Shown: positions 43,010 through 59,573 of the stretch, piece by piece | Numbering within the stretch: the first letter of the stretch is position 1 | How the letters are laid out: the number at the start of each line of letters is the position of its first letter | Source: Bryobacteraceae bacterium | GTDB taxonomy: Bacteria > Acidobacteriota > Terriglobia > Bryobacterales > Bryobacteraceae | Length of the DNA stretch: 64,000 nucleotides | Reading direction: 5' to 3' | NCBI GenBank assembly: GCA_030041495.1 | Contig: JASHNT010000002.1 | Location: 62,001 to 126,000, forward strand | Position numbers and translations under genes: made by a program | The notes under the pieces: generated by a model | What the model saw: the letters and a program-made list of their open reading frames with translations, nothing else | Databases searched by the model: none | Told to the model about the DNA's origin: nothing

Positions 43010-44089
43010 TTGCGCTTCGGAATCTTCGATCACTTGGATGACAGCGGTTTGCCGCTAACTGAGCATTTCGAGAACCGGCTGCGTCTAGTCGAAGCTTATG
43101 ACCGGTGCGGCTTCGAGTCGTACCACATAGCCGAGCATCACGGTACGTCGCTCGGCTTCGCTCCCTCTCCTGGCATTTTTCTGGCGGCCGTCGCTCAGCG
43201 CAGCCGGCGTCTTCGCCTTGGTCCTCTGGTATTCCTGCTGCCGCTGTATCATCCACTCCGGCTGATTGAAGAAATCTGCATGTTGGACCAGATGAGCGGC
43301 GGACGCTTGGAACTGGGCGTAGGCCGCGGCGTCTCGCCGATCGAACAGGGTTTCTATGGTATCGATTCCGCCGAAGGCATGGCCCGGTATCAGGAGGTGC
43401 TCGATATCGTTCTGAAGGGACTGGCCGGTGAAGTCCTGACGTACCGCGGCAAATTCTATTCTCTAGACCGCGTGCCGATGGTCATGAAGCCGGCACAGCG
43501 ACCGCATCCACCACTGTGGTATGGTACCGGCAACCCCGATACAGCGCTGTGGGCTGCCGCCAACGACGTAAATATCATGGGGCTCCTACCCGCAGCGCGC
43601 CTGCGGACGATCACGGATCGATATCGCGCCGAATGGCAGCGTCTCGGAAAGAGGGAAGCCGCGCTGCCGAAACTCGGTGCAGCGCGGCACATCGTCCTCG
43701 CCGAAAACGAAGACGAGGCCCAGGCTGAGGCTCGCCAAGCGTATCCCGCGTGGCGCACGAATATGGAACTGCTCTGGATACAGCGCGGCGTTCCGTTTAC
43801 GCTCCCGCTCCCAACTCAGTTCGACGAATACCAGCGAGCTGGCTTAGGATTTGCCGGGACCGCGGCCGGAGCGCGCGACTTCATTCGCCAACAGATCGCC
43901 GGCGCCGGCGTAAATTATATTGCCTGCGGCATTGCCTTCGGAACTCTTCCGGCGGCCGCCTCTCTCCGAACCACAGAATTGTTGGCCCGAGAGGTCATGC
44001 CAGCCTTCCAGGACGGCGAGAAGCACCTTGAATCTTCCACCTCAGCGGTCGCGACACTCAATGCCGATCTTTCGTTCCGCACCCCGTAG
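43010..44089 (+). CDS. LLM-class flavin-dependent oxidoreductase
   Basis: A 359-residue bacterial-luciferase-like monooxygenase that would use reduced FMN supplied by a partner reductase. TTG 43010 is preceded by GGAGAAGGAAAC. Family blocks are RLVEAYDRCGFESYHIAEHH, LRLIEEICMLDQMSGGRLEL, GVGRGVSPIEQGFYG and FYSLDRVPMVMKPAQRPHPP. The last about 20 residues are atypical and overlap a minus-strand ORF. It is 67 bases after the amidohydrolase, possibly in the same operon. Confidence 0.88.
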   Translation: MRFGIFDHLDDSGLPLTEHFENRLRLVEAYDRCGFESYHIAEHHGTSLGFAPSPGIFLAAVAQRSRRLRLGPLVFLLPLYHPLRLIEEICMLDQMSGGRLELGVGRGVSPIEQGFYGIDSAEGMARYQEVLDIVLKGLAGEVLTYRGKFYSLDRVPMVMKPAQRPHPPLWYGTGNPDTALWAAANDVNIMGLLPAARLRTITDRYRAEWQRLGKREAALPKLGAARHIVLAENEDEAQAEARQAYPAWRTNMELLWIQRGVPFTLPLPTQFDEYQRAGLGFAGTAAGARDFIRQQIAGAGVNYIACGIAFGTLPAAASLRTTELLAREVMPAFQDGEKHLESSTSAVATLNADLSFRTP

Positions 44090-44308
44090 CATCGTTCTCC
44101 AGCCTCGCTTGGTATCTTTCGGGAGAACTTTCATGAACGCCTCATACACGACCAGCGCGTCGCCTTCGCCATGGGCGCCCGCGTCCCCGAAGTTCATCCA
44201 CTTCGGGCTGATCAGTTCGATAAGCCGCGCGGATAAGTCACTCGGAGTTAATTTCAGGGTTTTGCGACACGTCAAAGGGGAGGGGGGCAATCTTGAAACC
44301 GGCCTCAC
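44042..44308 (-). CDS. Possible small protein, unknown
   Basis: An 88-residue ORF convergent with the luciferase-like gene. It contains a coding-like segment ELISPKWMNFGDAGAHGEGD followed by ALVVYEAFMKVLPKDTKRGW. No ribosome site stands out and I know no family. It may be a small gene or the tail of a lost one; it is the only plausible content of the 44.1-44.3 kb gap. Confidence 0.3.
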   Translation of the reverse strand: MRPVSRLPPSPLTCRKTLKLTPSDLSARLIELISPKWMNFGDAGAHGEGDALVVYEAFMKVLPKDTKRGWRTMLRGAERKIGIECRDR

Positions 44309-44332
44309 GTTCGAAAGGTTTCCGCGCTGTTC

Positions 44333-45685
44333 CTATGTCTTGTGCAACTCAATCAGAGCCTGCTCTAACACCTCTAGCCCTTCCGCGATCTGACCGTCGG
44401 TCGCGGTCAGGGGAACCAGCAAACGAATTACATTACCGAACGTGCCGGCCGAAATCACTAACAACCCGCGGCTGTGACAGGCAGCGAGGATATCTTTCGT
44501 CTCGGTCTCCGCGGGTTCCTTTGTAATGCGATCCCGGACAAGTTCGATGGCTCGCATGGCGCCAACGCCTCGAATGTCGCCGATCAAAGAAAAACGAACC
44601 GGCCACGAGCGAGTAGCCGATTCAAAGAGCCTGCCAATTCTCTCAGAACACTCCGAAAGATGCAGCGAGTCGACGGCCTTGAGTATCTCGATCGCGGCCC
44701 GGCACGCAACCGGGTTGCCGCCGAATGTGCCTCCCAGCCCGCCCGGCCCGGGCGAATCCATGATTTCAGCCCTCCCCGTAACCGCGGCCAGCGGCAATCC
44801 TCCCGCAATGGACTTCGCACTCAAGATGAGATCCGGCTCGACGCCGAATTTTTCGCAGGCGAACAGCGGACCGGTCCGGCAGAAACCGGTCTGAATTTCA
44901 TCGGCGATGACGAGGATGCCGTGCTCCCTGCACAAGCTGGTTATGGCCTGAAACCAATCAGGCGGCGGAACCACGAACCCGCCTTCGCCGAGCACCGGTT
45001 CGAAAATCACTGCGGCAACTGCTTCTGCCTCGATATGCCGTTTGAAAATGCTTTCCATTTCCTGAGCGCACTTCACTTCGCAAGCGGGATGCGTGAGGTT
45101 GTAAGGGCATCGGTAACAGTAGGCATACGGCATCCGGTAGATTTCCGCTGCAAACGGGCCAAACCCGGATTTGTAGGGCCTCGATTTTCCGGTGAGGCTC
45201 AACGCAAGCTGAGTGCGTCCGTGAAAGGCATCTTCAAATGCGATCACCGCCTGACGGCGGGTAAAATGGCGCGCGATCTTGACTGAATTCTCCACTGCCT
45301 CCGCGCCGCTGCTCACAAGGAATGTCTTCTTCGGGAAATCGCCGGGTGTGCGCCGGTTCAGTTCTTCGGCGAGCTGGACGTAGCCTTCATAAGGGGTCAC
45401 CATGAAGCAGGTATGAACGAACTGTTCGGTTTGTTCGCGGATCGCGGCGGTCACTTCGGGTGCGCAGTGTCCGGCATTCTGACATCCGATTCCACCGGCG
45501 AAATCGAGCAGACGGTTTCCATCGACGTCCTCAATCGTCGCGCCGTGGGCGCGCCGCACAAATATGGGCAGCGTGGATGCGACTCCCCGCGGGACGCAGG
45601 CTTCGCGCCGCCGCTGGAGTTCCCTCGAAACCGGGCCGGGAATGGGAGTAACCAGATGAATGGATGATTCAGTTGTCGGCTTCAT
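44333..45685 (-). CDS. gabT: Class III aminotransferase (4-aminobutyrate aminotransferase-like)
   Basis: A 450-residue PLP enzyme. Blocks: LLDFAGGIGCQNAGHCAPEV, FLVSSGAEAVENSVKIAR, GRTQLALSLTGKSRPYK, PVLGEGGFVVPP, LVIADEIQTGFCRTG and the PLP-lysine region DLILSAKSIAGGLPLAAVTG, all typical of GabT/PuuE. It would pass an omega-amino group to 2-oxoglutarate or pyruvate. ATG 45685 is chosen; it overlaps the permease end by 17 bases. It is the last gene of the long minus-strand run that begins at qhpA, which suggests use of amine- or aminoacid-derived products. Confidence 0.92.
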   Translation of the reverse strand: MKPTTESSIHLVTPIPGPVSRELQRRREACVPRGVASTLPIFVRRAHGATIEDVDGNRLLDFAGGIGCQNAGHCAPEVTAAIREQTEQFVHTCFMVTPYEGYVQLAEELNRRTPGDFPKKTFLVSSGAEAVENSVKIARHFTRRQAVIAFEDAFHGRTQLALSLTGKSRPYKSGFGPFAAEIYRMPYAYCYRCPYNLTHPACEVKCAQEMESIFKRHIEAEAVAAVIFEPVLGEGGFVVPPPDWFQAITSLCREHGILVIADEIQTGFCRTGPLFACEKFGVEPDLILSAKSIAGGLPLAAVTGRAEIMDSPGPGGLGGTFGGNPVACRAAIEILKAVDSLHLSECSERIGRLFESATRSWPVRFSLIGDIRGVGAMRAIELVRDRITKEPAETETKDILAACHSRGLLVISAGTFGNVIRLLVPLTATDGQIAEGLEVLEQALIELHKT

Positions 45686-47234
45686 CAGGGAAAGCAGCCT
45701 TGACGGTGGCAAGTTGGAAGGCAGCGCCGCGCCGGAAAGCGAAGAATACAGGAATGCCGATCAAAACGATGATCATGCCGGGAAACGTAGTCAACGGCCG
45801 GTAGACAAAAAGGACCGCTAAGATGAGTGACGCGCCCATCAGGTAAAGCGCGGGGATCACCGGATATCCGAAGGCACGGTACGGCCGGTCTGCTTGCGGA
45901 CGCAGGGCGCGAAGGCGGAACAATCCAGCGATGGTGAGGATGTAGAACAATAGCGCGGCGGAAACGACGTAGTCGAGCAGATTGCTGTACAGATTCCCGT
46001 ATTCGCCGGTGGCCGGATTATAAGTACGGAGCAAAACCAGGAATGCGGCCCAAGCTCCTTGCATCGCCAGCGACGCGCCCGGAACGCGCGCCCGATTCAG
46101 CGTCGCAGCGCGGCGGAAGAACAGGCCGTCCCTGGCCATGGCGTAGTAGGCACGCGCGCCGGACATCAGCATGCCGTTGATGCATCCGAACGCTGAAATC
46201 ATGATCGCCAGGGCCATGAGCGCGGCGCCCGCCGCAGGAAGCGCTGCAGCAAGCATGGCGCCGGCCACCCGATCGGCAAACGCATGTTGTATTTGGTCCA
46301 ACGGAAGGACCACAAGATAGGCGAAATTTACGCAGATATACAGACCGATGACAATCAGCGTTCCGAACAGCAGCGACAACGGAAGATTGCGTTGCGGATG
46401 CTTGACCTCTCCGGCTGTAAACGTAATGTTATTCCACGCATCCGCCGCGAACAGCGAACCGACCTGCGCCACGCAGAGGGCAACGAAGAGACCAAGGGCA
46501 GTCTCGGGCGAGAGTCCGGGCGCGGGAGGAGTAAAGCCGCGCGGGGTCCACGCTCCGGTGAAATTCTCGCGCACTGCCATCGCGCTCCACCCTGCTACGA
46601 GTCCCACGCCGATCACGCCTAACAGCGAACCGATCTTGGCGGACGTGAACACATTTTGAATAATTCTTCCGTAATAGATGCCCCGCGCGTTGCTCCAGGT
46701 GAGTAGTCCCAGCAAGAGGATTCCCACCAACTGGGCGGTGGATAGAGACACCGCATAGGTACGGGTGATGTGTATCGGCGCAACCAGGTAATTCTGTTCT
46801 GAAATTTGCGGCCAAAGAATGCCGAGGTAGCGCGCAAAACCCACGCCAACTGCGGCGACCGTGCCGGTTTGAATGACCAGAAACAAAGTCCAGCCGTACA
46901 GGAATCCCCAAAGCGGGGACCAGGCCTCGCGGAGGTACACATATTGCCCTCCGGCATGAGGCATCATGGCGGCCAGTTCCCCGTAGGATAGCGCCGCCGC
47001 GATGGTCAGCAGACCGGTGATAACCCAGGAGGCCAGTAGCCAACCAGCACTGCCGACCTGCCGCGCCATCTCCGCGGCAACGATAAATATGCCGGTGCCG
47101 ATCATGGATCCGGCGACGATCATGGTCGAATCCAGGAGGCTCAGGCTGCGAACCAGACCGTGGCCCGGATCGGCGCGCTGGTCTGCTGCCGGATTGTCAG
47201 GCGTTCCGATCGTAGAGGATCCTTCCGCCGACAA
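45669..47234 (-). CDS. APC-superfamily amino acid/polyamine permease
   Basis: A 521-residue inner-membrane transporter with about 12 hydrophobic segments. The first helix has the APC signature STMIVAGSMIGTGIFIVAAE; LSYGELAAMMPHAGGQYVYL and PQRNLPLSLLFGTLIVIGLY follow. The only upstream start is TTG 47234, overlapping the amidohydrolase stop by 38 bases; a later start is possible. It is likely to import an amine, amino acid or oxidation product. It sits between the amidohydrolase and gabT in the QHNDH-associated operon. Confidence 0.9.
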   Translation of the reverse strand: MSAEGSSTIGTPDNPAADQRADPGHGLVRSLSLLDSTMIVAGSMIGTGIFIVAAEMARQVGSAGWLLASWVITGLLTIAAALSYGELAAMMPHAGGQYVYLREAWSPLWGFLYGWTLFLVIQTGTVAAVGVGFARYLGILWPQISEQNYLVAPIHITRTYAVSLSTAQLVGILLLGLLTWSNARGIYYGRIIQNVFTSAKIGSLLGVIGVGLVAGWSAMAVRENFTGAWTPRGFTPPAPGLSPETALGLFVALCVAQVGSLFAADAWNNITFTAGEVKHPQRNLPLSLLFGTLIVIGLYICVNFAYLVVLPLDQIQHAFADRVAGAMLAAALPAAGAALMALAIMISAFGCINGMLMSGARAYYAMARDGLFFRRAATLNRARVPGASLAMQGAWAAFLVLLRTYNPATGEYGNLYSNLLDYVVSAALLFYILTIAGLFRLRALRPQADRPYRAFGYPVIPALYLMGASLILAVLFVYRPLTTFPGMIIVLIGIPVFFAFRRGAAFQLATVKAAFPDEADN

Positions 47235-48894
47235 TCGTCATGTCCACCTTCATCGTCAGGAGCTTCTCTGGCGAAACGGCCAGCAAATCTTCCGGCAGCA
47301 CGATCATATCCGCGAGTTTTCCAGGCTCCAGCGTGCCTTTTATTTTCTCCTCGCGGGTCAGGAATGCCCCATTGCGGGTGTACATCTTAATGGCGTCTTT
47401 CATGCTGACGGCTTCTTCGCGTCCGTATACCTTGCCGCTTTCGCCCTTGCGCGTGACAGCGGCATAGAGACCTACGAACGGCCCGATGGGCAAATTGTCG
47501 CTGCCGAAGGCCATGAAGATTCCGTGCTTGATGGGAGTGGTTAAGGAGTTGTTTGTCGCCAGCCGCTTGCCCTCCAGCGCTTCAACGTAGCGGCCTTCCA
47601 GATTGTAAGTGAAGTTGGGCTGCTGAGCGATCAGGATCTTGTCCTTCACCATGAGTTGCATGGTCCGCTCCGGCGGAAGAACCGTGAAGTGGCACAGGTA
47701 ATGACGGTGATCCGCCCGGGGATATTTTTCGAGCACCTGATCGAGCGCGTCCACGGTCATGGCGATCGAAGCATCGCCGATGGCGTGGATTCCGAATTGC
47801 CAGCCCAATAGATGACCGGCCTCGATGTTCGCGTGGATCTGCTCCGGCGTGAAAAATGCGCGCCCGCGGAATCCAGGCTGGCCTTTGTAGTCTTCCAGCA
47901 CCCACGCCGTGGGGCCCGTGAATCCGCCGTCCGCCGCCATTTCGCCGATCGAGCCTACGCGCAGCCGCTCATCGCCATCCCCGGTCTTTTTCCCGAACTC
48001 CCTCAATTTGGCGGCGCCTTCTTTCGCCTGTCCCGCGGGAGAAGGGTAGCCGACCTGGACCGACGCCCGCGGCAGCTCCGTTCCGTGCTTCTGGTACAGG
48101 AGCTCCCATTCCGCAAACGAGCCGACAACGCCGGGATCGACTGAAGAACCCGCCTCAATCACGCTGGTGATTCCCAGCTTTAACTGCTCTCGCACGTTTT
48201 CGAGCAGACTATCGCGAACGTCGGCCGGCTTGTCCTTCGGAACCAGGCGGGTGTAGAGGTCATTGCGCTCGCGAATGACGCCGTTCGGTTCACCCGATGC
48301 ATCGTGCTCGATCAGACCGCGATCCGGGTCAGGCGTGGCCTTGTTGACGTCTGCCAATTGAAGCGCCTTGCTGTTGCCGACGGAACTGTGGCCGCCCGCT
48401 CGCGTAAGCACCACGGGGTTATTGGGCGCGGCTGCGTCGAGGTCGCCGCGCAACGGCTTCCTCAGCTCAGTGAAGTGATACTCGTCCCATCCACTGCCGG
48501 TGATCCACTCGCCGGGACCCAGTTCCTTGGCCTTATCCGCGACCTGCTGCTTCAACTGAGCCAACGACGTGGTGTCGTTAAGATCGATGTAGCGCCGGGA
48601 GTGGCCGCCCAAGTGGATGTGGGTGTCATGGAATCCCGGGATCACCATTCGTCCGCGCAGATCGATGGCCCGCGCTCCCGCGTAGCGGTTTCGCAACTCA
48701 TTCCCGCCGACCGCCAGGATGCGGCCATCTTTGATGACGATCGCCTCACGGATGGAAAACGCGTCGTCGGCAGTGACGATTTTTCCGTTGAAAAGCACCA
48801 AATCGGCGCCGGGAGCCTGCGCGTACAGGCGCGACACGCCCGCCACGGACACCGCACCCACTGCGCCCAGAAATTCACGTCTGGAGTAATTCAT
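47197..48894 (-). CDS. Tat-exported amidohydrolase (YtcJ-like, amidohydrolase_3)
   Basis: A 565-residue hydrolase with a Tat signal (MNYSRREFLGAVGAVSVAGV ... YAQ). Family blocks are GADLVLFNGKIVTADDAFSI, MVIPGFHDTHIHLGGHSRRY with the HxH pair, WQFGIHAIGDASIAMTVDAL, and LTREEKIKGTLEPGKLADMI. It starts 28 bases after qhpB with GGAGGAAACCG upstream, so it is probably co-expressed with the dehydrogenase. It may hydrolyse N-acyl amines or amides in the periplasm; substrate unknown. Confidence 0.9.
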   Translation of the reverse strand: MNYSRREFLGAVGAVSVAGVSRLYAQAPGADLVLFNGKIVTADDAFSIREAIVIKDGRILAVGGNELRNRYAGARAIDLRGRMVIPGFHDTHIHLGGHSRRYIDLNDTTSLAQLKQQVADKAKELGPGEWITGSGWDEYHFTELRKPLRGDLDAAAPNNPVVLTRAGGHSSVGNSKALQLADVNKATPDPDRGLIEHDASGEPNGVIRERNDLYTRLVPKDKPADVRDSLLENVREQLKLGITSVIEAGSSVDPGVVGSFAEWELLYQKHGTELPRASVQVGYPSPAGQAKEGAAKLREFGKKTGDGDERLRVGSIGEMAADGGFTGPTAWVLEDYKGQPGFRGRAFFTPEQIHANIEAGHLLGWQFGIHAIGDASIAMTVDALDQVLEKYPRADHRHYLCHFTVLPPERTMQLMVKDKILIAQQPNFTYNLEGRYVEALEGKRLATNNSLTTPIKHGIFMAFGSDNLPIGPFVGLYAAVTRKGESGKVYGREEAVSMKDAIKMYTRNGAFLTREEKIKGTLEPGKLADMIVLPEDLLAVSPEKLLTMKVDMTIVGGRILYDRNA

Positions 48895-48922
48895 CGGTTT
48901 CCTCCTTCGGAAGGTCCTCGAT

Positions 48923-50008
48923 TTACGGAACCACGATGATTCCGCCCATGGTCACGTCATTCTGAAGGTCCATCACGTGCTCGAGCTTGAGCGTTGCGGC
49001 ATCCCAAACCTCGATCTCGAAACCGGCGCCATACACATACAGGTGCTTGCCGTCGCTTGAAATGCCGAAGCTGAAGCGCGGGCGGCAAGGGAATTCGGAA
49101 GTCATTGTTCGCTGGTTCCTGGCGATATCGAACGCCCAAAACTCGCAGCGGCGATTGCCGTGCTCCCCGTTTACGACCACGCTGTAGCCGGTCTTGCGGT
49201 CGGGCGACACCTGCAGGCCGATCATGCCGGTGGGAGCGGGGCCGATCTCCGTGAATTGGAATTGCCGCGAATTCAAATCGAAATGCGCGATTCCGAAAAG
49301 ATTTCGATGCACCACCGGGTCCTGGGCGTTAAAAACCGAGACATAAGCGCCGCGTTCATCCAGCGTATTCAACGCGGCTCCCATACCGACGTCCTCCAGG
49401 TCCGGGAAATCGGGCTTGGCCAGCTCGATCCGGTCGACGACGTGGAAATCGCTGGAATCGAGAATCGTTACTTTGTCGCGAAACTGGTAGATGTACTTGC
49501 CGCCGGGAGAAACGTAAAACGGGCTGCGTCCGTAATAGGAGCCATTCGCCTCCTGATCCTCCGGAGTCATGTCAGCCGTGCGCACGATCTTTTGCTGCGC
49601 CAGATCGATCACCCCGTATTTGAGCTTGCCGACCACATAACGATCGGCCTGCTTTTCCACTTCCCTCACCACCGTGTACAGCACCTTGTCTTCCGGGTCC
49701 GGCGCAACGCCGTTGATGCGGAATTTGTGGCTCCCGCTGTTGAGGACGAAATGCTGCAGGACTTTGTGCGTTGCGATATCGATCACTGCAACGCCGTCGT
49801 TATCGTTCGAGGTAACGTAGATCTTCTTCCGATCGTAAGACCGCGTCACACCGGTAGGGATTCCGATCTCGCTCGGGATCTTGTCGACGATTTTTTGGGT
49901 TGCTTCGTCGATGACAAGAATACGGTCGGGATAGCCGGGGAGGAAGATTGTGCCGGCGATCGCCTTGCTGCAGAGCGCCGCAAGAATAGCCAGGGAGGAC
50001 ACTTTCAT
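48923..50008 (-). CDS. qhpB: Quinohemoprotein amine dehydrogenase, beta subunit
   Basis: A 361-residue periplasmic seven-bladed beta-propeller that, with alpha and gamma, forms QHNDH, which oxidises primary amines to aldehydes and ammonia. A signal MKVSSLAILAALCSKAIAG is followed by YVTN-type repeats such as PDRILVIDEATQKIVDKIPS, KKIYVTSNDNDGVAVIDIAT and GKYIYQFRDKVTILDSSDFH. The size fits the known 36-40 kDa subunit. AAAGG precedes ATG 50008, 13 bases after qhpC. The order A-D-C-B matches that of Paracoccus. Confidence 0.93.
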   Translation of the reverse strand: MKVSSLAILAALCSKAIAGTIFLPGYPDRILVIDEATQKIVDKIPSEIGIPTGVTRSYDRKKIYVTSNDNDGVAVIDIATHKVLQHFVLNSGSHKFRINGVAPDPEDKVLYTVVREVEKQADRYVVGKLKYGVIDLAQQKIVRTADMTPEDQEANGSYYGRSPFYVSPGGKYIYQFRDKVTILDSSDFHVVDRIELAKPDFPDLEDVGMGAALNTLDERGAYVSVFNAQDPVVHRNLFGIAHFDLNSRQFQFTEIGPAPTGMIGLQVSPDRKTGYSVVVNGEHGNRRCEFWAFDIARNQRTMTSEFPCRPRFSFGISSDGKHLYVYGAGFEIEVWDAATLKLEHVMDLQNDVTMGGIIVVP

Positions 50009-50021
50009 GACGATTGAGCCT

Positions 50022-50360
50022 TTACGGAAAGATCAGGTCCAGATTCCGCCAATCCTTGGTCGCGCTGGCGCACTTGGCTGCCCAATCCGGAGCGTTGTTG
50101 AGATGGTCCGGAACCTGCGCGGGCCAGTAGCAATCGACGTAGCAATCGTAGATATCGCGCTCCACCGGCTGGCACAGGCCGGCTGAGCCGCCCGCGGAGT
50201 CAACCTCCCAACCCGGAGTAAAGATAAAGGTGCAACCCATGGGCACATGCATCTTCGGCGGCGGGGGCGCGCCCTGAAGCGCGACAACGTCTTTCTCTGG
50301 CGACTCGGAAATTTGGTCGATGCGGTGCGCCTTCTTGTTGATGGCTCTCAAATGTTTCAC
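50022..50360 (-). CDS. qhpC: Quinohemoprotein amine dehydrogenase, gamma subunit precursor (CTQ peptide)
   Basis: A 112-residue precursor of the small catalytic subunit carrying cysteine tryptophylquinone. GTG 50360, one base after the qhpD stop and preceded by AGGAAGT, is chosen; longer frames run antisense to qhpD sense codons. By the known gamma numbering, mature Cys7-Glu16, Cys27-Asp33, Cys37-Trp43 and Cys41-Asp49 correspond here to C43/E52 in GCTFIFTPGWE, C63/D69 in CQPVERD, and C73/W79 plus C77/D85 in CYVDCYWPAQVPD. Every spacing (9, 6, 6, 8) is kept. Residues 1-36 are a leader, predicted to be cut near K36-M37 by QhpE. C97 is an extra cysteine near the C-terminus. Confidence 0.95.
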   Translation of the reverse strand: MKHLRAINKKAHRIDQISESPEKDVVALQGAPPPPKMHVPMGCTFIFTPGWEVDSAGGSAGLCQPVERDIYDCYVDCYWPAQVPDHLNNAPDWAAKCASATKDWRNLDLIFP

Positions 50361-50361
50361 T

Positions 50362-51801
50362 TTAGGACTTCCTTTCAGTGAATCGATCCAGGAACTCAGG
50401 GTTCTGCGCGGCAATCGCGCCATAAATGCGGAGACATTTGTCAGTCCAATCGCGAATCCAGTCGCAGTAGTGCAGGTTGGGATGACCGGTGTCGCCGTAG
50501 CGCACGAACGCCTCATGGTGACAGCCTCCCGCGCAGAGCGGCCGCGCCCAGCACTGGTGGCAATCGTATTTAGTGTTAATGTTGCCGCGCCGCAAAAAGT
50601 CCCCCTGCCGGTCGCGATCAATGCCGGTCGACACGTGGCCGATCGCATGCCGGTCGGAATCGACGAAGCGGTGACAGGGAGCGATGTCGCCCGAAGGCCC
50701 CACGCCAACCAAGCCCAGACCCGCACCGCACGGATGCGACTTACTGACGCCCTGGTGCAACTCCGCCAGCGTGTCGCTGACGTTCGAGAAACCATGCATT
50801 TCGCCACGCAGAGCGGATTCCAGATATTCGTCGGCGAGGACATGGAACTGTTCCAGGACGTGATCCATCCCGCGTTCATTGATGGCGTAGAGGCGATCCG
50901 GCGAGGTGGTCACTAGGGCGAAGCCCACCTCATGAAATCCGAGATCATTCTTCAGATGGCGAAAGATCCGCGCGACGTCGGTCACGCCGGAAGTCAGCGT
51001 GACGCGCGCGGTGATAGGCCGCGTGCGGTGATTCTGGATCAACGCCCGGACCCTTGGCTCGACCAGATCGTAACTGCCGCGGCCATTCGAGAAGACGCGT
51101 AGCTTGTCCTGCATGTCCTTGGGGCCGTCCATGCTGACCGTGACGCCGATCCGGTTGTCAGAAAGGAACTCGATGATCGCGGGCGTCAGTAGCGTGGCGT
51201 TGGTGGTGAGGCTGAAGTCGATGGAGCGCTGTTGCGCGAGCGCTTGCTCCGTAGCGTAGCCGACCACCCGCTTGAGCAGCGGGAAGTTCATCAGCGTTTC
51301 ACCGCCAAAAAAGGTGATGTGAACATGGCGCCGGCCCGCCGATTGCTTCAGAAGGAAATCGACCGAGCCTTTCGCCGTCTCGAAATCCATGAACTTCGGC
51401 TTGCCCTCCGGCGTGGCGACCTTGTCATCGCCGAACTCATAACAGTACTGACACGCCAGGTTGCATTGGTTGGTGAGATTCAGAACCAGCGTCTGGAGCG
51501 GGAAATCGGCGGGCGGAGATTGAGCATTGTCGAGAAAGACTTCACCGTTTGACAGCGCCCGGGTTCGATGCATCTCATCGATCGCCTCGCTAGCCTCAAC
51601 GCTCGGGAAACCGCGGGCGGTCAGATCGGCCAGAAGCCGGTCACGGGATGCCTCACCCTGCTCGAGACGCTCGATCATGGCAGCGGCGATCTCATCCAAC
51701 GCGAAGATTCCGCCGCTCGGGACCAGGTAAAGGAATCGCGTTCCTGCCGCATCGAATGAATGAAACTCGCCCAAGCGGTAGATGGATTCCGTCGCGGTCA
51801 C
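50362..51801 (-). CDS. qhpD: QHNDH radical SAM/SPASM maturase
   Basis: A 479-residue iron-sulfur enzyme that forms the Cys-to-Asp/Glu thioether cross-links in the gamma peptide. An N-terminal 90-residue segment resembles a peptide-recognition (RRE-like) domain. The radical SAM cluster is C113-C117-C120 in LTNQCNLACQYCYEFG. The SPASM region has CGAGLGLVGVGPSGDIAPCH, then YDCHQCWARPLCAGGCHHEA and HYCDWIRDW. GTG 51801 overlaps the qhpA stop (GTGA) with CAGGAGG upstream; the longer frame to 51822 is less likely. It is directly upstream of its substrate gene qhpC. Confidence 0.95.
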   Translation of the reverse strand: MTATESIYRLGEFHSFDAAGTRFLYLVPSGGIFALDEIAAAMIERLEQGEASRDRLLADLTARGFPSVEASEAIDEMHRTRALSNGEVFLDNAQSPPADFPLQTLVLNLTNQCNLACQYCYEFGDDKVATPEGKPKFMDFETAKGSVDFLLKQSAGRRHVHITFFGGETLMNFPLLKRVVGYATEQALAQQRSIDFSLTTNATLLTPAIIEFLSDNRIGVTVSMDGPKDMQDKLRVFSNGRGSYDLVEPRVRALIQNHRTRPITARVTLTSGVTDVARIFRHLKNDLGFHEVGFALVTTSPDRLYAINERGMDHVLEQFHVLADEYLESALRGEMHGFSNVSDTLAELHQGVSKSHPCGAGLGLVGVGPSGDIAPCHRFVDSDRHAIGHVSTGIDRDRQGDFLRRGNINTKYDCHQCWARPLCAGGCHHEAFVRYGDTGHPNLHYCDWIRDWTDKCLRIYGAIAAQNPEFLDRFTERKS

Positions 51802-53519
51802 GGCGCCACCTCCTGATCCCAAATAATGAAGAGCGGCACGCTGACCACCAGGTAGGATCGCGCGCTGAGCGGCCTCCCGTTCTGGTCTTTTTCGCTCTTC
51901 GCTGTCGCCACCACCCAGACCGTCCCGTAATTGTTGCGCATCTGCTTGCGCTGCGGATTGGGACCGTCAAGCGCCGGCGTGAACAGGCCGGATGGATTCA
52001 GCGTACCGACAAATTCTTTGTCATCGTCGCCGAATGTCTCATAGAACTCTTCCATCGACCAAGCCACCTCGACTGGTCCAAGCTCGACATCGTCCGCGGT
52101 TCCCGGTTTGCCGTCCGCGCCGCGATTGTATGCCATCACTTCAAACTGCTGGTATCCTTTGGGACGTTGTGACGCGCCGCCGAGCCTGGCGATCGAAGTT
52201 CCGGGAATAACCTTGATGGAATCGATCCGGTCGTAGACCGCGATGGCGTTCGGCAGTACCGCCTGTCCAACAGAAATGTCCCGTCTGCCGTTGATCGCAT
52301 TCGCTGCTACATCCACTTCTACGACCACCTCGCGAGGCGTGTGCGAAACAACCCGCCGGATGCTGACGCCCGAGCCGAAGTCGACATCGGCGGGAGATAA
52401 CTGAGCGGGGAAACTGTCGCCCACGATACGAATGCGCTGGGTCTGCGAACCCGCTTTCAGCGACGGCCGGTCCAGCCCCACGATAGAAGCAACGCCCGTC
52501 GCTTTCCACAATTTCACGTCAACGCCGAATTCGCCGTAGGAGCCCCAGAACCAGCGGCCCTGGGCCTGCGATTGGTCCGGATCGATCATCATCGACTCGC
52601 GCATCTCCGCCGGTATATCGCCGGGAGCGGAGCCGGAGGCCGCGCCAGTGGATCGCCCTCGCCACGCATAGCCGTTGAATACCGCAACTTTGCCGGAACG
52701 TTCAATGACTGGTCCCCCTCCGATCGGCTCCAGCCTGATGGTGGTTGTGAATTCGTCCGGCGCGGCGCCCGCGCCGATGTTGACTTCTCCCCAATAAGCG
52801 CCCTTGCCTGCGATGTGCGCTGAAGCCAGCCACTTCCCGGCGAGCTTGGGAGGACGCGAGCGCGCCCGCCAGGCTGCCCATTCCGGCGTCTCTAAAGGAT
52901 AGGTCTTGGTCAGGTATTCGATGGCCTGGTCGACTGGTTGCGGCGGCGGCGGTCCTGCCGGAGTCGCGCTGTTATCTCCTGGTGCAGCCGCGCCCGGGCT
53001 GCGGCGGCGATGGAAGGCGGTCAGATCCGTGACCGGATACAAAGCCTCGTGCATGTCAACCAGCAGCTTCCATTCTTCCGGCGACCGCCGGAAGGAGGCG
53101 ACTCGACCGAAGGGGTGGCAGGAGGCGCAGGCCGAGTGAATGACCTCGCTGGGATAAGCCTCATCGACGATGCGATGCTCCGGCATGTAAGCGACCGGTT
53201 TGGCCTCCTCCGGAGCAAGTCCGTGGCTCGCACTTAGGGATTTGATGATGCTCCGGGCCTCATCGGGCGTCAGGGTCAGCCCGTTGAGGCGGACCATCCG
53301 CTTGATGACTTCTTCCCAGCCCTCCGGCGTCGTCCGCTCCCACGAAATTCGCGACAGATTCCCCTTGTCGTCTTTCTTGTGGCAGGTGCTGCACTTCGCG
53401 ATCACCAGCGGATCGGTGACGGGAAGGCCTTCGGTGGGCTTGGGCTCGCTGGACTGCCCACGCGCGTCGGGCGGGCAGAAAACGGCTACCAGGGCAACCG
53501 CTATCGAAAGCCTGATCAC
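51798..53519 (-). CDS. qhpA: Quinohemoprotein amine dehydrogenase, di-haem alpha subunit
   Basis: A 573-residue periplasmic subunit that carries electrons from CTQ to an external acceptor. GTG 53519 with AAGGAGG upstream gives a signal MIRLSIAVALVAVFCPPDARG. Two c-haem sites are present, C43STCH47 and C131ASCH135, followed by beta-sandwich domains (GKWLASAHIAGKGAYWGEV, RIVGDSFPAQLSPADVDFGS). The C-terminal part includes WSMEEFYETFGDDDKEFVG. It is longer than the about 60 kDa proteobacterial subunit, partly from a Pro/Ala-rich insert near residue 175. First gene of the operon. Confidence 0.94.
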   Translation of the reverse strand: MIRLSIAVALVAVFCPPDARGQSSEPKPTEGLPVTDPLVIAKCSTCHKKDDKGNLSRISWERTTPEGWEEVIKRMVRLNGLTLTPDEARSIIKSLSASHGLAPEEAKPVAYMPEHRIVDEAYPSEVIHSACASCHPFGRVASFRRSPEEWKLLVDMHEALYPVTDLTAFHRRRSPGAAAPGDNSATPAGPPPPQPVDQAIEYLTKTYPLETPEWAAWRARSRPPKLAGKWLASAHIAGKGAYWGEVNIGAGAAPDEFTTTIRLEPIGGGPVIERSGKVAVFNGYAWRGRSTGAASGSAPGDIPAEMRESMMIDPDQSQAQGRWFWGSYGEFGVDVKLWKATGVASIVGLDRPSLKAGSQTQRIRIVGDSFPAQLSPADVDFGSGVSIRRVVSHTPREVVVEVDVAANAINGRRDISVGQAVLPNAIAVYDRIDSIKVIPGTSIARLGGASQRPKGYQQFEVMAYNRGADGKPGTADDVELGPVEVAWSMEEFYETFGDDDKEFVGTLNPSGLFTPALDGPNPQRKQMRNNYGTVWVVATAKSEKDQNGRPLSARSYLVVSVPLFIIWDQEVAP

Positions 53520-53579
53520 GAAGCTGCCTCCTTGCGCCCAGGACGGAATCGACGAGTAAGGCCATGGTATCATCGCGCC
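53520..53579. promoter_or_regulatory. Divergent intergenic region between qhpA and qhpF
   Basis: Only 60 bases separate the two divergent starts, with AAGGAGG (minus strand) serving qhpA. The promoters for both directions must overlap here or lie inside the opposite gene. I cannot define -35/-10 boxes. Shared regulation of subunits and maturation genes is likely; no qhpR-like AraC regulator gene is in the window. Confidence 0.45.
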
Positions 53580-55268
53580 GTGGATCGTGCTGCCACACCG
53601 GCCCGATGGAGTGAGTATCGCCGGCTCAAGGGTTTCCTGCGTCCGTACTCCGGCCGTCTCGCTTTCATTCTGTTGACCGGCCTGTTGGCGACCGGACTCG
53701 GCTTGGCGCAGCCGTACATCTCCAAACTTCTGATCGACGTTGCCCTCATGCGGCGCGATTGGCGGGCGCTGTGCTGGATTGCGGCTCTAATGTTCGGCGC
53801 CGCAATTCTCAGTTTCGCGCTCAATATTCTTTCCAGCTACCAGTACATCCGGGTTGCGGCGGCGATGCTTTTCGATATGCGCGTGGCGCTGTACCGCCAT
53901 CTTCAGAAGCTTTCTCCACGCTTCTACGCGAAATGGCGGCTGGGGGACCTGGTGTCACGGCTGAATAACGACATCGGCGAGGTGCAGCGTGTGTCAGCCG
54001 ACACCCTTCTCGCTGTCGTGAGCAATGTGGTTTTCCTCCTTGGGAGCATCGCCATGATGCTGTGGCTGAATTGGCGCTTGTTCGTGTTGAGCGTCGTGCT
54101 GGTGCCGTTGTCTCTGCTCACGTTCCACCATTACCAGCAAAAACTCACCGGATTCGCGCGGCAATTGCGCGAGCGCGCCGCGGACGTGGGGAGCCTGTTC
54201 GTAGAAACTCTGATCGGCATACGAACGGTGATCTCCTCTAATGCCGCAGAATACGAAGTCCAAAGGTTCAGCCAGCGTAATCACGCCTTTGTCGATGCTC
54301 TCCTAAGACTCCAGGTTGCTTCCTTTCTCAGCGGAGCCCTTCCCGGAACGATTCTGACTGCATCTGCCGCGGTGGTGCTTCTTTACGGCGGCCGGATGAT
54401 CATCGATGGCCGGATGACCATCGGGACCTTGGTGGCGTTTATGGCCTACCAGCTCCAGTTGCTGTCTCCGGTGCAGAAAATGATGAGCATGGCCGCCAAC
54501 CTCGCATCGGCTCGCGCCGCGCTGGCGCGCATGTTTGAGATCCTGGATAGTCCCATCGAGGTTGCGGAGCGCGCTGATGCTTTACCCCTCGGCCCCGTTC
54601 GCGAGAAAATCGCCTTTGAAAATGTCACCCTTCGGCATGATCGTGAGAACGTCCTGAATGGCGTCTCGTTCGAAGTGCAAGCGGGTACTTTTTGCGCGAT
54701 CGCCGGCCCAAGCGGCGCAGGCAAGTCGACCATTGCCGATTTGCTGGTTCGCTTCCTCGATCCGGATTCCGGCAGGATCACGATCGACGGGCACGATATT
54801 CGCGACGTCCGGCTTGAAGACCTGCGCCGCGAAGTCGTTTTGGTTGACCAGGTGCCTCATTTGTTCAATGCAACCATCGCCGAGAATATCTCCTACGCCA
54901 ATCCAGATACCTCACGATCGGAGATCGAGACAGCCGGGCAGCGGGCCGGCCTGGATGAGTTGATCGCCCGGCTCCCCCAGGGATACGACACTCCGACCGG
55001 CGAACGCGGATTAGCGCTTTCCGCGGGCGAACGGCAGCGCATCGCACTGGCGCGCGCGCTGCTGCGGAAGCCAAGCCTCTTACTTCTGGACGAGCCGACT
55101 TCGGCGCTCGATCCGGAGACGGAAGCAGTTGTTGCCCGCCATCTGCGCCAGTCTCTCCGCGGATCGACCGTCATTGTCATCACACACCGGCCGGCCCTGT
55201 CCGAGATTGCAGACCAGGTGGTGAATCTTCGGGAAGGGAAAGTATGGACTGCGCTCGAAATGGTATGA
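53580..55268 (+). CDS. qhpF: ABC transporter (fused permease-ATPase) of the QHNDH cluster
   Basis: A 562-residue half-transporter with an N-terminal six-helix domain (about residues 15-310) and a C-terminal nucleotide-binding domain: Walker A GPSGAGKSTIADLL, signature LSAGERQRIALARALLRKPS, Walker B LLLDEPTSALDPE and the switch His in ITHRPALSE. In the known system QhpF moves the cross-linked gamma peptide to the periplasm. GTG 53580 is chosen because the transmembrane domain begins at once; a longer frame overlaps qhpA antisense. Stop overlaps qhpE. Confidence 0.92.
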   Translation: MDRAATPARWSEYRRLKGFLRPYSGRLAFILLTGLLATGLGLAQPYISKLLIDVALMRRDWRALCWIAALMFGAAILSFALNILSSYQYIRVAAAMLFDMRVALYRHLQKLSPRFYAKWRLGDLVSRLNNDIGEVQRVSADTLLAVVSNVVFLLGSIAMMLWLNWRLFVLSVVLVPLSLLTFHHYQQKLTGFARQLRERAADVGSLFVETLIGIRTVISSNAAEYEVQRFSQRNHAFVDALLRLQVASFLSGALPGTILTASAAVVLLYGGRMIIDGRMTIGTLVAFMAYQLQLLSPVQKMMSMAANLASARAALARMFEILDSPIEVAERADALPLGPVREKIAFENVTLRHDRENVLNGVSFEVQAGTFCAIAGPSGAGKSTIADLLVRFLDPDSGRITIDGHDIRDVRLEDLRREVVLVDQVPHLFNATIAENISYANPDTSRSEIETAGQRAGLDELIARLPQGYDTPTGERGLALSAGERQRIALARALLRKPSLLLLDEPTSALDPETEAVVARHLRQSLRGSTVIVITHRPALSEIADQVVNLREGKVWTALEMV

Positions 55269-55984
55269 GAAGGCGTAGAGTCCGCATCGCCGTCATCGAT
55301 AGCGGCGTACACGCTTCTCATCCGCACATCAGAGGCGTCGCCGGTGGAGCGACCGTCACGGATGACTCCGAGGAAAGCTCCTACGTCGACCTCCTGGGGC
55401 ACGGAACAGCCGTCATGGCGGCCATCCAGGAAAAGGCTCCGGATGCCGAATACTTTGCCGTTCGCGTGTTCCAACGGGAACTGCGCACTAGCTTGGGCGT
55501 CCTTCTTCGAGCTATCGAGTGGTGCGCGGCGCAGCGCGTGGATATCATCAACCTCAGCCTGGGTACTGCCAATCCCGCGCATGCTGAAGCGTTCGCACCG
55601 CTGATCCCCAGGGCCGGCTTGCTGGTTTCGGCGCTGGAAGTGAACGGATGCCCATCTTTTCCGGGAACTCTGCCGGAAGTCGTTGGCGTGGGCGTGGACT
55701 GGGATCTGCCGCGCGACTCGTATGTCTGCCGGAATGGAACTGAATTCTACGCGTCCGGCTACCCTCGCCCGATTCCGGGAGTCTCACCGGAGCGAAATCT
55801 GAACGGCATCAGTTTCGCCGTCGCCAACATGACCGGATTTGCCGCTAGAGTTTTCGAAAGGCTCCGCGATGATCCACCGGGCGCGGAAGTCAAACGCCGT
55901 GTAATTCAAACCCTTGCAGCCGGTAGCGGAACGGCGATGCCTTCCGACTTTCGCGCTCGCAGTATTCAAGGCCTCGCGCGATAA
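55244..55984 (+). CDS. qhpE: Subtilisin-like leader protease of the QHNDH cluster
   Basis: A 246-residue S8 peptidase expected to remove the gamma-subunit leader. The catalytic triad is D19 (VIDSGV), H53 (LLGHGTAV) and S190 (NGISFAVANMTG); N134 in LEVNG is the likely oxyanion residue. No signal peptide is visible, so it acts inside the cell, as for known QhpE. ATG 55244 has GGGAAGGGAAAGT upstream; ATG 55265 (ATGA overlap with qhpF) is an alternative. The 3' end overlaps qhpG by 95 bases in convergent orientation. Confidence 0.92.
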   Translation: MDCARNGMRRRRVRIAVIDSGVHASHPHIRGVAGGATVTDDSEESSYVDLLGHGTAVMAAIQEKAPDAEYFAVRVFQRELRTSLGVLLRAIEWCAAQRVDIINLSLGTANPAHAEAFAPLIPRAGLLVSALEVNGCPSFPGTLPEVVGVGVDWDLPRDSYVCRNGTEFYASGYPRPIPGVSPERNLNGISFAVANMTGFAARVFERLRDDPPGAEVKRRVIQTLAAGSGTAMPSDFRARSIQGLAR

Positions 55985-56897
55985 GCTCAAGCTCAGCGTC
56001 CCACCACGGTCCCTGGCGAGCCGACGTATAGAAGTCGTTGCAGAGCTGGAGATGGCGACGAAAGGCGTACAGCAGCCGGGTTCGATAATGGTCGAGAAGC
56101 TCCGCCTCCGGCTCGCCCCGGAATGCGGCGCGAATGACTGCCGACGCCAGGATCGCTTCCCGGAGCGCGTTGCCCGTGCCATCCCCGCACAAGGGATCGA
56201 AGGCCAACGCGGCGCTTCCGCACGCCAGCCAGCGGGTTTGATCAAAGAGTCCGCAGAATGGGTCGGCGATGACCGGACAGGCCGGGAACTGCCCTGCGGG
56301 AGGACCCAAGGACCGAATCTGCCGGGCAACCAAGCGACTCGCAGACAGGAGGGTGTCGTGCGCGGCGCCCACGGCAAGTAGCCAGCCTTTTCTCGAAGGA
56401 GCGGGCAGGAGGAACAGCCAACCATTCGAGAGCGACTCAATCCAACATGCCGCGGATTCTAAATCGTCCGCAAGATCAGCCGGCAGTACGGTCGCAACCC
56501 GCGAGCCAAAGCGGTGCTCTGCGATTGGCGACGGAAGGGGACGCGACGCGAAGACGGTCCAGCTTGGCTGATAATCCGAGCTTCGTTGGTGGCCCGCTGA
56601 AAAATTCAGTCTCCCTAGAAGCTCATCTTCTGAAATAACAACCGCCGAGTGTGGAATGCGAACTGGGCTGGAAGATTTCTCCCATTGAACGATGCGCGCT
56701 TCAACTCGCGCAAAGCCATCGAACAGATCTGCTTTGTCAAAGACATCGCACATGAGCCGTTGCGTGCGGCGGCTCAGCATGAGCGCCGGCACAGGCGTTC
56801 GGCCGGTCTCTTCGCGCATGACCGCGAATCCGGCGGAGCCGAGTAACTGCCCGCAGCAGCAAGCTGCAATCCCGTCACCACGAATGACGATTCCCAT
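55890..56897 (-). CDS. qhpG: FAD-dependent monooxygenase of the QHNDH cluster
   Basis: A 335-residue flavoprotein expected to hydroxylate the gamma-subunit Trp during CTQ formation. The N-terminal Rossmann motif is IVIRGDGIAACCCGQLLGSA. The second FAD motif is LACGSAALAFDPLCGDGTGN, typical of tryptophan-halogenase/monooxygenase-like enzymes. Length is somewhat short for the group. It is convergent with qhpE, overlapping 95 bases, and lies 7 bases after the amidase stop... that is, immediately downstream of the amidase gene on the minus strand. Confidence 0.88.
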   Translation of the reverse strand: MGIVIRGDGIAACCCGQLLGSAGFAVMREETGRTPVPALMLSRRTQRLMCDVFDKADLFDGFARVEARIVQWEKSSSPVRIPHSAVVISEDELLGRLNFSAGHQRSSDYQPSWTVFASRPLPSPIAEHRFGSRVATVLPADLADDLESAACWIESLSNGWLFLLPAPSRKGWLLAVGAAHDTLLSASRLVARQIRSLGPPAGQFPACPVIADPFCGLFDQTRWLACGSAALAFDPLCGDGTGNALREAILASAVIRAAFRGEPEAELLDHYRTRLLYAFRRHLQLCNDFYTSARQGPWWDAELELIARGLEYCERESRKASPFRYRLQGFELHGV

Positions 56898-58499: not shown

Positions 58500-59573
58500 A
58501 TGAAGCTACTTTCTGCCGCCTTGCTAATAGCACCGATCGTTCTACGTGCCGCGGAAGCGGATAACTCAGGCTGGAATCCGGCGAGCGCCTGGGCGTATCT
58601 CGATGCGCGGGCGGGGTGGTGGATCGGTTGGAAACCGGCGGCACGCGACCAGGGGACGTTTTGCATCTCCTGTCACACTGCGCTTCCGTACGCTCTCGGC
58701 CGGCCCGCGTTGCGAGCTTCTGGAGAGGAAGTGCCCTCCCCGAACGAACAGAAGATCTTAGATAACGCGGCGAAGCGTGTGCGGCTCTGGAACGAAGTAC
58801 AACCCATCTATAGCGACGAAAAGAACGGCGCGCCGAAGACAGCGGAAGCGCGAGGCACGGAGTCCGTCATTTACGCGTTAGTTCTCAGCAACTATGATGC
58901 GCCGAGGGGTAACCTGAGCGCCGATACTAAACTCGCGTTTGACAATATGTGGTCCATGCAGTTGAAGAGTGGCGCATGGAATTGGCTCAACTTTCATAAT
59001 GAGCCGTGGGAGGCAGATGATTCTCAGTTTTGGGGAGCGGCGCTCGCTGCCATCGCCGCTGGAAACGCTCCTGGGGATTACAATTTGTCTCCCCATGTTG
59101 TGGCCGGCATCCAGGCTCTTAACGGCTATCTGCAGCGTAACCAGCGGGACCAATCATTGTTGAATCGAGCCTTCCTTCTTTGGGCCTCAGCCAGCCTTCC
59201 GAACCTGTTGACGCGCGTTGAACAGGAGGCGATCATCAGCGCTATCGTGGAAAAACAACAGCCGAATGGCGGCTGGAGCACGGCGTCACTATTGCCCGCC
59301 GGATGGAAGCGGAGCGATTCCACGGCACTGGAAACCAAGAGCGACGGATATGCGACGGGTCTTGTCACCTTCGTGTTGCAGAAGGTGGGCTTAGCGCGCA
59401 CGGATCCTCGGGTGAAGCAGGGGTTGGCGTGGCTGATGGCCAACCAAGACCCGAATGCCGGTTCATGGGAGGCTGTGTCGCCGAACAAGCAGCGCGATCC
59501 CGCATCCGACGCAGGCCGGTTCATGACAGACGCGGCAACAGCATACGCCGTGATGGCTCTGGAAAGGCGCTGA
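58500..59573 (+). CDS. Exported alpha-toroid (squalene-cyclase-like) protein with a CxxCH site
   Basis: A 357-residue periplasmic protein. The signal is MKLLSAALLIAPIVLRAA. One haem-type motif C55ISCH59 (GTFCISCHTALPYALGRPAL) is followed by repeats of the prenyltransferase/squalene-oxidase type, such as EKQQPNGGWSTASLLPAGW and LAWLMANQDPNAGSWEA. The QW-type repeats lack the cyclase DxDD motif, so it is not a hopene cyclase. GAGGAG precedes ATG 58500. It is divergent from the amidase and could be an electron-transfer or binding partner; that is unproven. Confidence 0.8.
   Translation: MKLLSAALLIAPIVLRAAEADNSGWNPASAWAYLDARAGWWIGWKPAARDQGTFCISCHTALPYALGRPALRASGEEVPSPNEQKILDNAAKRVRLWNEVQPIYSDEKNGAPKTAEARGTESVIYALVLSNYDAPRGNLSADTKLAFDNMWSMQLKSGAWNWLNFHNEPWEADDSQFWGAALAAIAAGNAPGDYNLSPHVVAGIQALNGYLQRNQRDQSLLNRAFLLWASASLPNLLTRVEQEAIISAIVEKQQPNGGWSTASLLPAGWKRSDSTALETKSDGYATGLVTFVLQKVGLARTDPRVKQGLAWLMANQDPNAGSWEAVSPNKQRDPASDAGRFMTDAATAYAVMALERR

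Follow-up and report, generated by a model that had tools for sequence, protein, structure and literature searches.

Quinohemoprotein amine dehydrogenase (QHNDH) acts in the periplasm, and the order and strands of the qhp operon vary between organisms (PMC7876137). In Paracoccus denitrificans and Pseudomonas putida, the available portions of the published accounts describe a qhpABCDEFGR set with qhpA, qhpB and qhpC, the maturase gene qhpD, the protease gene qhpE, the exporter gene qhpF and the flavoprotein gene qhpG. Genes assigned to these types, tentatively so for qhpE, qhpF and qhpG, were found in the DNA analyzed here, a 64,000-nucleotide stretch (the window) of contig JASHNT010000002.1 from the Bryobacteraceae bacterium assembly GCA_030041495.1 (positions 62,001 to 126,000, forward strand). 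In the window, qhpA-D-C-B are followed on the minus strand by genes for an amidohydrolase (AMH), an APC-superfamily permease and a γ-aminobutyric acid (GABA) transaminase (GABT), none of which is mentioned for P. denitrificans or P. putida in those portions. The qhp system and the variability of its gene order were already known, and the AMH-APC-GABT extension is a variant of that system. In the open-licence literature, no description of such an extension of qhp was seen, nor any printed link between QHNDH and GABA or putrescine, both being weak negatives. The locus is interpreted here, with a probability of about 0.5, as a lineage-specific QHNDH locus in which AMH, a permease and GABT have been gathered and which would serve the use of diamines or N-acyl-diamines.

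The seven genes of the minus-strand run are qhpA (51798..53573), qhpD (50362..51822), qhpC (50022..50360), qhpB (48923..50008), AMH (47197..48894), the permease gene (45669..47234) and GABT (44333..45685). qhpA and qhpD overlap by 25 bp, the gaps between qhpD and qhpC and between qhpC and qhpB are 1 and 13 bp, and a 28-bp gap separates qhpB from AMH, with AAGGAGG just ahead of the AMH start. AMH overlaps the permease gene by 38 bp, and the latter overlaps GABT by 17 bp. The original prediction of an operon at this site had been correct in its coordinates, including the 28-base gap and the overlaps at 47197/47234 and 45669/45685, and its gene identities agreed with family matches well above chance. 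It had also named a terminator or a separate promoter between qhpB and AMH as evidence against an operon. In a consensus scan, no terminator-like site was detected in the 28-bp gap, the minus-strand terminator-like sites all fell within genes, and the promoter-like sites over positions 43500-55000 were at chance level (3 found and 3.5 expected, on both strands). Because of the two overlaps and the lack of a terminator-like site in the gap, the layout can be read as polycistron-like, and the seven genes probably form one transcription unit.

The distribution of these genes was analyzed in a family sample of 200 genomes and in phylum samples of 396 (QhpD) and 297 (AMH) genomes. QhpD was found at E≤1e-60 in 55 of the 200 family genomes (51 if four matches of about 35% identity are set aside); in the phylum sample it was found in 31 of 396 genomes, a few of these matches being weak. 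AMH was present in 10 of the 200 family genomes at E≤1e-100 and in 2 of the 297 phylum genomes at E≤1e-120, the window's own genome being counted in both cases. All nine other AMH genomes of the family sample carried QhpD, compared with 50 of 199 overall (hypergeometric P = 2e-6, or about 9e-4 when counted by genus), and QhpD was also present in the one other AMH genome of the phylum sample (G077). In four further genera having AMH and a mixed QhpD status, AMH was found in five of the nine members with QhpD and in none of the five without it, a comparison of few genomes, and one confounded with ancestry. The permease was useless as a marker of co-occurrence, since 188 of the 200 family genomes contained a homologue at E≤1e-80.

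In the QhpA and QhpB trees, the window grouped with G505 and G553, from another genus, and not with its congeners (support 0.99-1.0), and both of these genomes carry AMH at 85-88% identity. The first of them, G505, has qhpD-C-B, AMH and GABT on one contig and one strand, with AMH 6 kb beyond qhpB and followed by GABT. A toxin-antitoxin-like pair, recognized by eye, plus another gene (other strand), and an outer-membrane barrel protein lie between qhpB and AMH, whereas AMH and GABT are separated by a MerR-XRE-cupin regulator encoded on the opposite strand. In G478, a genome 71% complete, AMH adjoins qhpE and a second qhpB-like gene, and the same 30-kb contig also holds other qhp genes, GABT, two aldehyde dehydrogenases, spermidine dehydrogenase (SpdH) and a copper amine oxidase.

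GABT, at the far end of the run, was associated with polyamine genes. Of the 16 other family-sample genomes with GABT, 10 also carried SpdH (P = 3e-10), and in 7 of the 16 (G409, G417, G478, G479, G487, G550 and G589) the GABT orthologues, at 56-63% identity, were located in polyamine-type runs. The recurrent set comprises a HemL-like aminotransferase, an APC permease, SSADH-like and BADH/aminobutyraldehyde-like dehydrogenases, a PotD/PotA-like transporter and SpdH; its members are incomplete in some genomes and several contigs are cut. These neighbours and the co-occurrence with SpdH therefore suggest polyamines and, more specifically, GABA derived from putrescine or spermidine. In each of G478, G541 and G428, SpdH and qhp genes are found on one contig, and in the window's genome QHNDH would stand in for the entry oxidase. 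The MerR-XRE-cupin protein is a candidate regulator of amine use. Among 72 chosen genomes it was detected at E≤1e-40 in six, each of which carries GABT; it adjoins qhpE in G541, is next to GABT in both G505 and G444, and is on a separate contig in G428. Examples of it were found at L075:9630-10460, at the L079/L080 junction and in L107, L125 and L127. GABT was also tried as a general QhpD-linked gene and proved weak in this role (8 of 16, P = 0.02).

Several observations weigh against the proposed reading. The comparison of gene order in relatives, set beforehand as the refuting test, included 51 QHNDH loci that contain qhpB and extend 2.5 kb or more past it (32 non-proteobacterial and 19 proteobacterial), and in none of them was AMH, APC or GABT found directly beyond qhpB. 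A conserved seven-gene catabolic unit is thus rejected; the operon claim survives in the polycistron-like layout but not as a conserved unit, and the exact gene order has the appearance of loosely linked genes that were rearranged locally, and not of a standard unit. Within the genus, AMH was found in 1 of 23 genomes, the window's own, and in none of the 22 others. In six of the nine other AMH genomes of the family sample (G426, G428, G458, G464, G503 and G526), AMH and qhpD lie on different contigs or are separated by 1.5 Mb, and in G553 AMH begins at a contig edge, where adjacency to qhp is not judgeable. The QhpD tree placed the window with G505 (support 0.96) and not with G553, the G505 sequence in this tree being partial and split across two contigs. 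Amidases of all grades, taken together as a generic control, were also enriched with QhpD (34 of 81, P = 7e-6), and therefore part of the AMH-QhpD signal may be due to ancestry or genome content. AMH matched 396 plasmid records; among the 25 listed, two Novosphingobium humi plasmids had 50% identity and the rest were near 33%, and the one N. humi stretch examined contained no qhp gene within 15 kb of AMH, both of the plasmid stretches retrieved being unannotated. The more distant GABT orthologues (48-63%) showed no enrichment among genomes with QhpD (4 of 12). A link of SpdH to QhpD was likewise rejected (6 of 14, P = 0.11), and the window's genome contained neither SpdH at E≤1e-80 nor the MerR-XRE-cupin regulator at E≤1e-40. 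Moreover, there is no aldehyde dehydrogenase in the seven-gene unit. A functional link between AMH and QHNDH is nevertheless likely.

In the pathway proposed for the diamine or N-acyl-diamine locus, QHNDH would oxidize the amine to an aldehyde in the periplasm. AMH would be located in the same compartment, because it has a leader of the twin-arginine translocation (Tat) type and QHNDH is periplasmic. The exported AMH could free the amine from an amide ahead of its oxidation by QHNDH, or it could take the acyl group off an N-acyl-amino acid after oxidation, an option that fits the gene order; by analogy with other PF07969 proteins the release of an amine is plausible, and deacylation of the oxidized product is equally possible. 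An aldehyde dehydrogenase would then yield an omega-amino acid, which would be GABA in the case of putrescine; the permease would bring in the amino acid or the diamine, and GABT would transaminate the imported product, giving succinate semialdehyde. Since QHNDH makes an aldehyde and the unit is devoid of an aldehyde dehydrogenase, this step must be encoded elsewhere, and a complete pathway within the unit is ruled out. A search of the window's genome with one query, the G478 enzyme, gave three homologues at 36-50% identity, all on contigs other than that of the unit (two on C126 and one on C3). The data show the gene identities, the layout, the co-occurrence, the common ancestry of QhpA and QhpB with those of G505 and G553, and the association of GABT with polyamine genes in relatives; co-transcription, substrate, step order and transport direction are what we infer for this pathway. 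The earlier proposal that the three added genes release an amine, import a product and transaminate it is retained as a probable catabolic link of QHNDH, amidohydrolase and transaminase, on the basis of co-occurrence, shared clade and loose clustering in some further genomes, few in number, but not as the pathway was written, which lacks the aldehyde step.

It is also possible, with a clearly lower probability, that an independent AMH-APC-GABT (or APC-GABT) unit happens to lie behind qhpB on the same strand with no shared function. Such a chance neighbourhood would agree with the order missing from the 51 other loci, with the lack of an aldehyde dehydrogenase in the unit and with the situation in the congener G532, which has APC-GABT-amidase on a contig of its own and qhp genes more than 40 kb from either contig end. 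It would not account for the confinement of AMH to QhpD genomes in the family sample (9 of 9), or for AMH and GABT being part of the QHNDH cluster in G505, the nearest QHNDH relative. The locus might instead serve the use of a monoamine, such as phenylethylamine or tyramine released from an N-acyl form, in the manner of the Pseudomonas pea genes, with GABT and APC serving an unrelated amino acid. In the available parts of the sources, the Pseudomonas QHNDH is tied to phenylethylamine catabolism (PMC3644233) and QHNDH is described as oxidizing diverse amines, both aliphatic and aromatic (PMC5023235). We consider this improbable, as GABT exceeds the cut-off of the GABA transaminase equivalog and several of its orthologues lie beside SpdH, PotD/PotA-like and succinate-semialdehyde dehydrogenase genes, which points to diamines.

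A different doubt concerns AMH itself, which might not be a catabolic amide hydrolase, and might cleave another bond or aid the maturation of QHNDH. The PF07969 family is functionally broad, according to the part of the source available (PMC13081902), the bridging Lys is replaced by Glu in the clade of AMH, and across genomes AMH tracks QhpD and not GABT (3 of 9) or SpdH (3 of 9), which would fit a tie to the enzyme itself. This explanation seems very unlikely, given that AMH is missing from 41 of the family sample's 50 other genomes with QhpD, so that it is not generally needed for maturation, and that the locus itself contains genes of the types known for maturation.

The sequence features of AMH were compared with those of its family. 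The protein matched the whole Amidohydro_3 domain (PF07969; 303.9 bits, E = 4e-90), and its leader contains SRREFLG and was judged by eye to be of the Tat type; leaders of this type were also recognized by eye in G505, G428 and G478. A carboxylatable bridging Lys is frequent, but not universal, in Amidohydro_3/YtcJ-like enzymes. E318 of AMH stands at the column of this residue; Glu was found there in the window, G505, G428, G478, G553 and N. humi, and Lys in G426, G464, G458 and the second G428 copy. This Glu-for-Lys clade is predicted to keep a two-metal site. Naming AMH by solved structures was attempted and rejected, the best two of the six matches being uncharacterized hydrolases (101 and 100 bits, E about 1e-27). 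More speculatively, and with a low probability in our view, the clade may be a dedicated partner of QHNDH, a secreted N-acyl-diamine amidohydrolase for the use of amide-bound polyamines by soil Acidobacteriota outside the cytoplasm, with the gene order of the window following the order of the pathway. The clade combines Glu in place of the bridging Lys, an export leader and a distribution limited to QhpD genomes in the family sample.

The permease gene, with a TTG start, encodes a protein matching AA_permease_2 (E = 2e-49); its score against the L-type transporter model TIGR00911 was 178 bits, under the cut-off of 701.8, and it was assigned only to the APC superfamily. GABT is a class-III aminotransferase that matched the GABA transaminase equivalog TIGR00700 with 555.3 bits (cut-off 506.65) and PDB 3r4t with E = 3e-143. 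On the other side of the cluster, an amidase gene (PF01425; 56905..58404, minus strand) ends 7 bp before qhpG and encodes a TRRQAMQ leader, Tat-type by eye. Orthologues of this amidase with at least 69% identity, searched with a query two codons longer than the listed gene, were present in seven other family genomes, each of which has QhpD. AMH and the amidase flank the cluster, which therefore has two amide-hydrolase-family proteins with export-type leaders on its sides.

The QHNDH genes themselves were identified from family models and structures. QhpA, the alpha subunit, reached 508.7 bits against QH-alpha TIGR03908 (cut-off 274), has the heme-binding domain, the Qn_am_d domains II-IV and two CxxCH heme sites (CSTCH and CASCH), and aligned with the P. 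putida QHNDH structure (PDB 1jmx chain A, E = 5e-65). The radical SAM maturase gene qhpD has a TTG start, and its product reached 620 bits against TIGR03906 (cut-off 453). The gamma subunit QhpC (112 aa, GTG start) matched the QH-gamma model with 138.7 bits (cut-off 50) in a search using a slightly longer stretch than the final gene call, and its residues 40-112 aligned with residues 4-76 of PDB 1jmx chain G, the cysteine tryptophylquinone (CTQ) core (E = 8e-24). QhpB scored 62 bits against TIGR03907, under the cut-off of 223, with weak beta-propeller matches; it is kept as a putative divergent beta subunit because these matches agree with its expected position between qhpC and AMH.

Beyond qhpA, genes of the qhpF, qhpE and qhpG types were found, all of which recur in the QHNDH loci of relatives. 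The qhpF-type ABC exporter (53580..55268, plus strand), with generic ABC exporter matches only, lies in an open reading frame (ORF) that opens at 53379, the GTG at 53580 being the likelier start. The qhpE-type subtilisin-like protease (55244..55984, plus strand) had 155.7 bits against NF049966, slightly under the cut-off of 165, and the qhpG-type flavoprotein monooxygenase (55890..56897, minus strand) had 64 bits against NF049967 (cut-off 240). The qhpE- and qhpG-type ORFs (window 55244-56897) are convergent and overlap by 95 bp. By these matches, the known QHNDH biogenesis set appears to be present at the locus, the regulator excepted, as no qhpR was found among the neighbouring ORFs, to which the search was limited. 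The interval first proposed left out the qhpF-, qhpE- and qhpG-type genes and the amidase of the same system.

Additionally, other features were observed in and around QHNDH loci. Some relatives have two QHNDH gene sets, or extra qhpA or qhpB genes in one locus (L047, L090 and L077/L078). A 357-aa protein (window 58500-59573, plus strand) has an N-terminal CISCH heme-type motif and no Pfam match, and it recurs near QHNDH in Acidobacteriota, with homologues of at least 35% identity in 12 of 61 loci and in none of 18 sphingomonad loci. Its model (predicted local distance difference test score of 85) is mostly helical and closest in fold to squalene-hopene cyclases (E = 4e-5, template modelling score of about 0.5); the protein is possibly an electron-transfer partner. 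An outer-membrane barrel protein (PF25183 plus a carboxypeptidase-regulatory domain), absent from the window, comes next before qhpA in many relatives, with homologues of at least 35% identity in 20 of 61 loci (e.g., L078:145-3717, L032, L036-L041, L044 and L097-L100).

If the functional link is real, QHNDH would have a testable role in soil Acidobacteriota, in the use of polyamines or N-acyl-polyamines, and a subgroup of the large and mostly uncharacterized PF07969 family would have a testable function. This family includes proven amide hydrolases, some of them secreted, in the part of the source available (PMC13081902). AMH resembles its members NfdA (N-substituted formamide deformylase), the aminoacylases and the metallo bile salt hydrolases in family and in a probably metal-dependent amide hydrolysis. 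It differs from them in having Glu for the bridging Lys; its closest solved relatives are uncharacterized, and the characterized members are compared with it by family only. The Pseudomonas pea genes, which convert phenylethylamine to phenylacetate by QHNDH and PeaE, also couple QHNDH to downstream amine catabolism; they use an aldehyde dehydrogenase, which is absent from the window locus, and no GABT-type transaminase or amidohydrolase is mentioned for them in the available part of the source (PMC3644233). The polyamine pathways proceeding through SpdH or by direct oxidation (SpdH, amine oxidase, GabT and GabD), as described in the accessible part of the source, share with the proposed pathway the oxidation of an amine, the conversion of the aldehyde to GABA and the action of a GABA transaminase (PMC9397018). 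In contrast to these SpdH pathways, the first oxidation in the window's system would be carried out by QHNDH.

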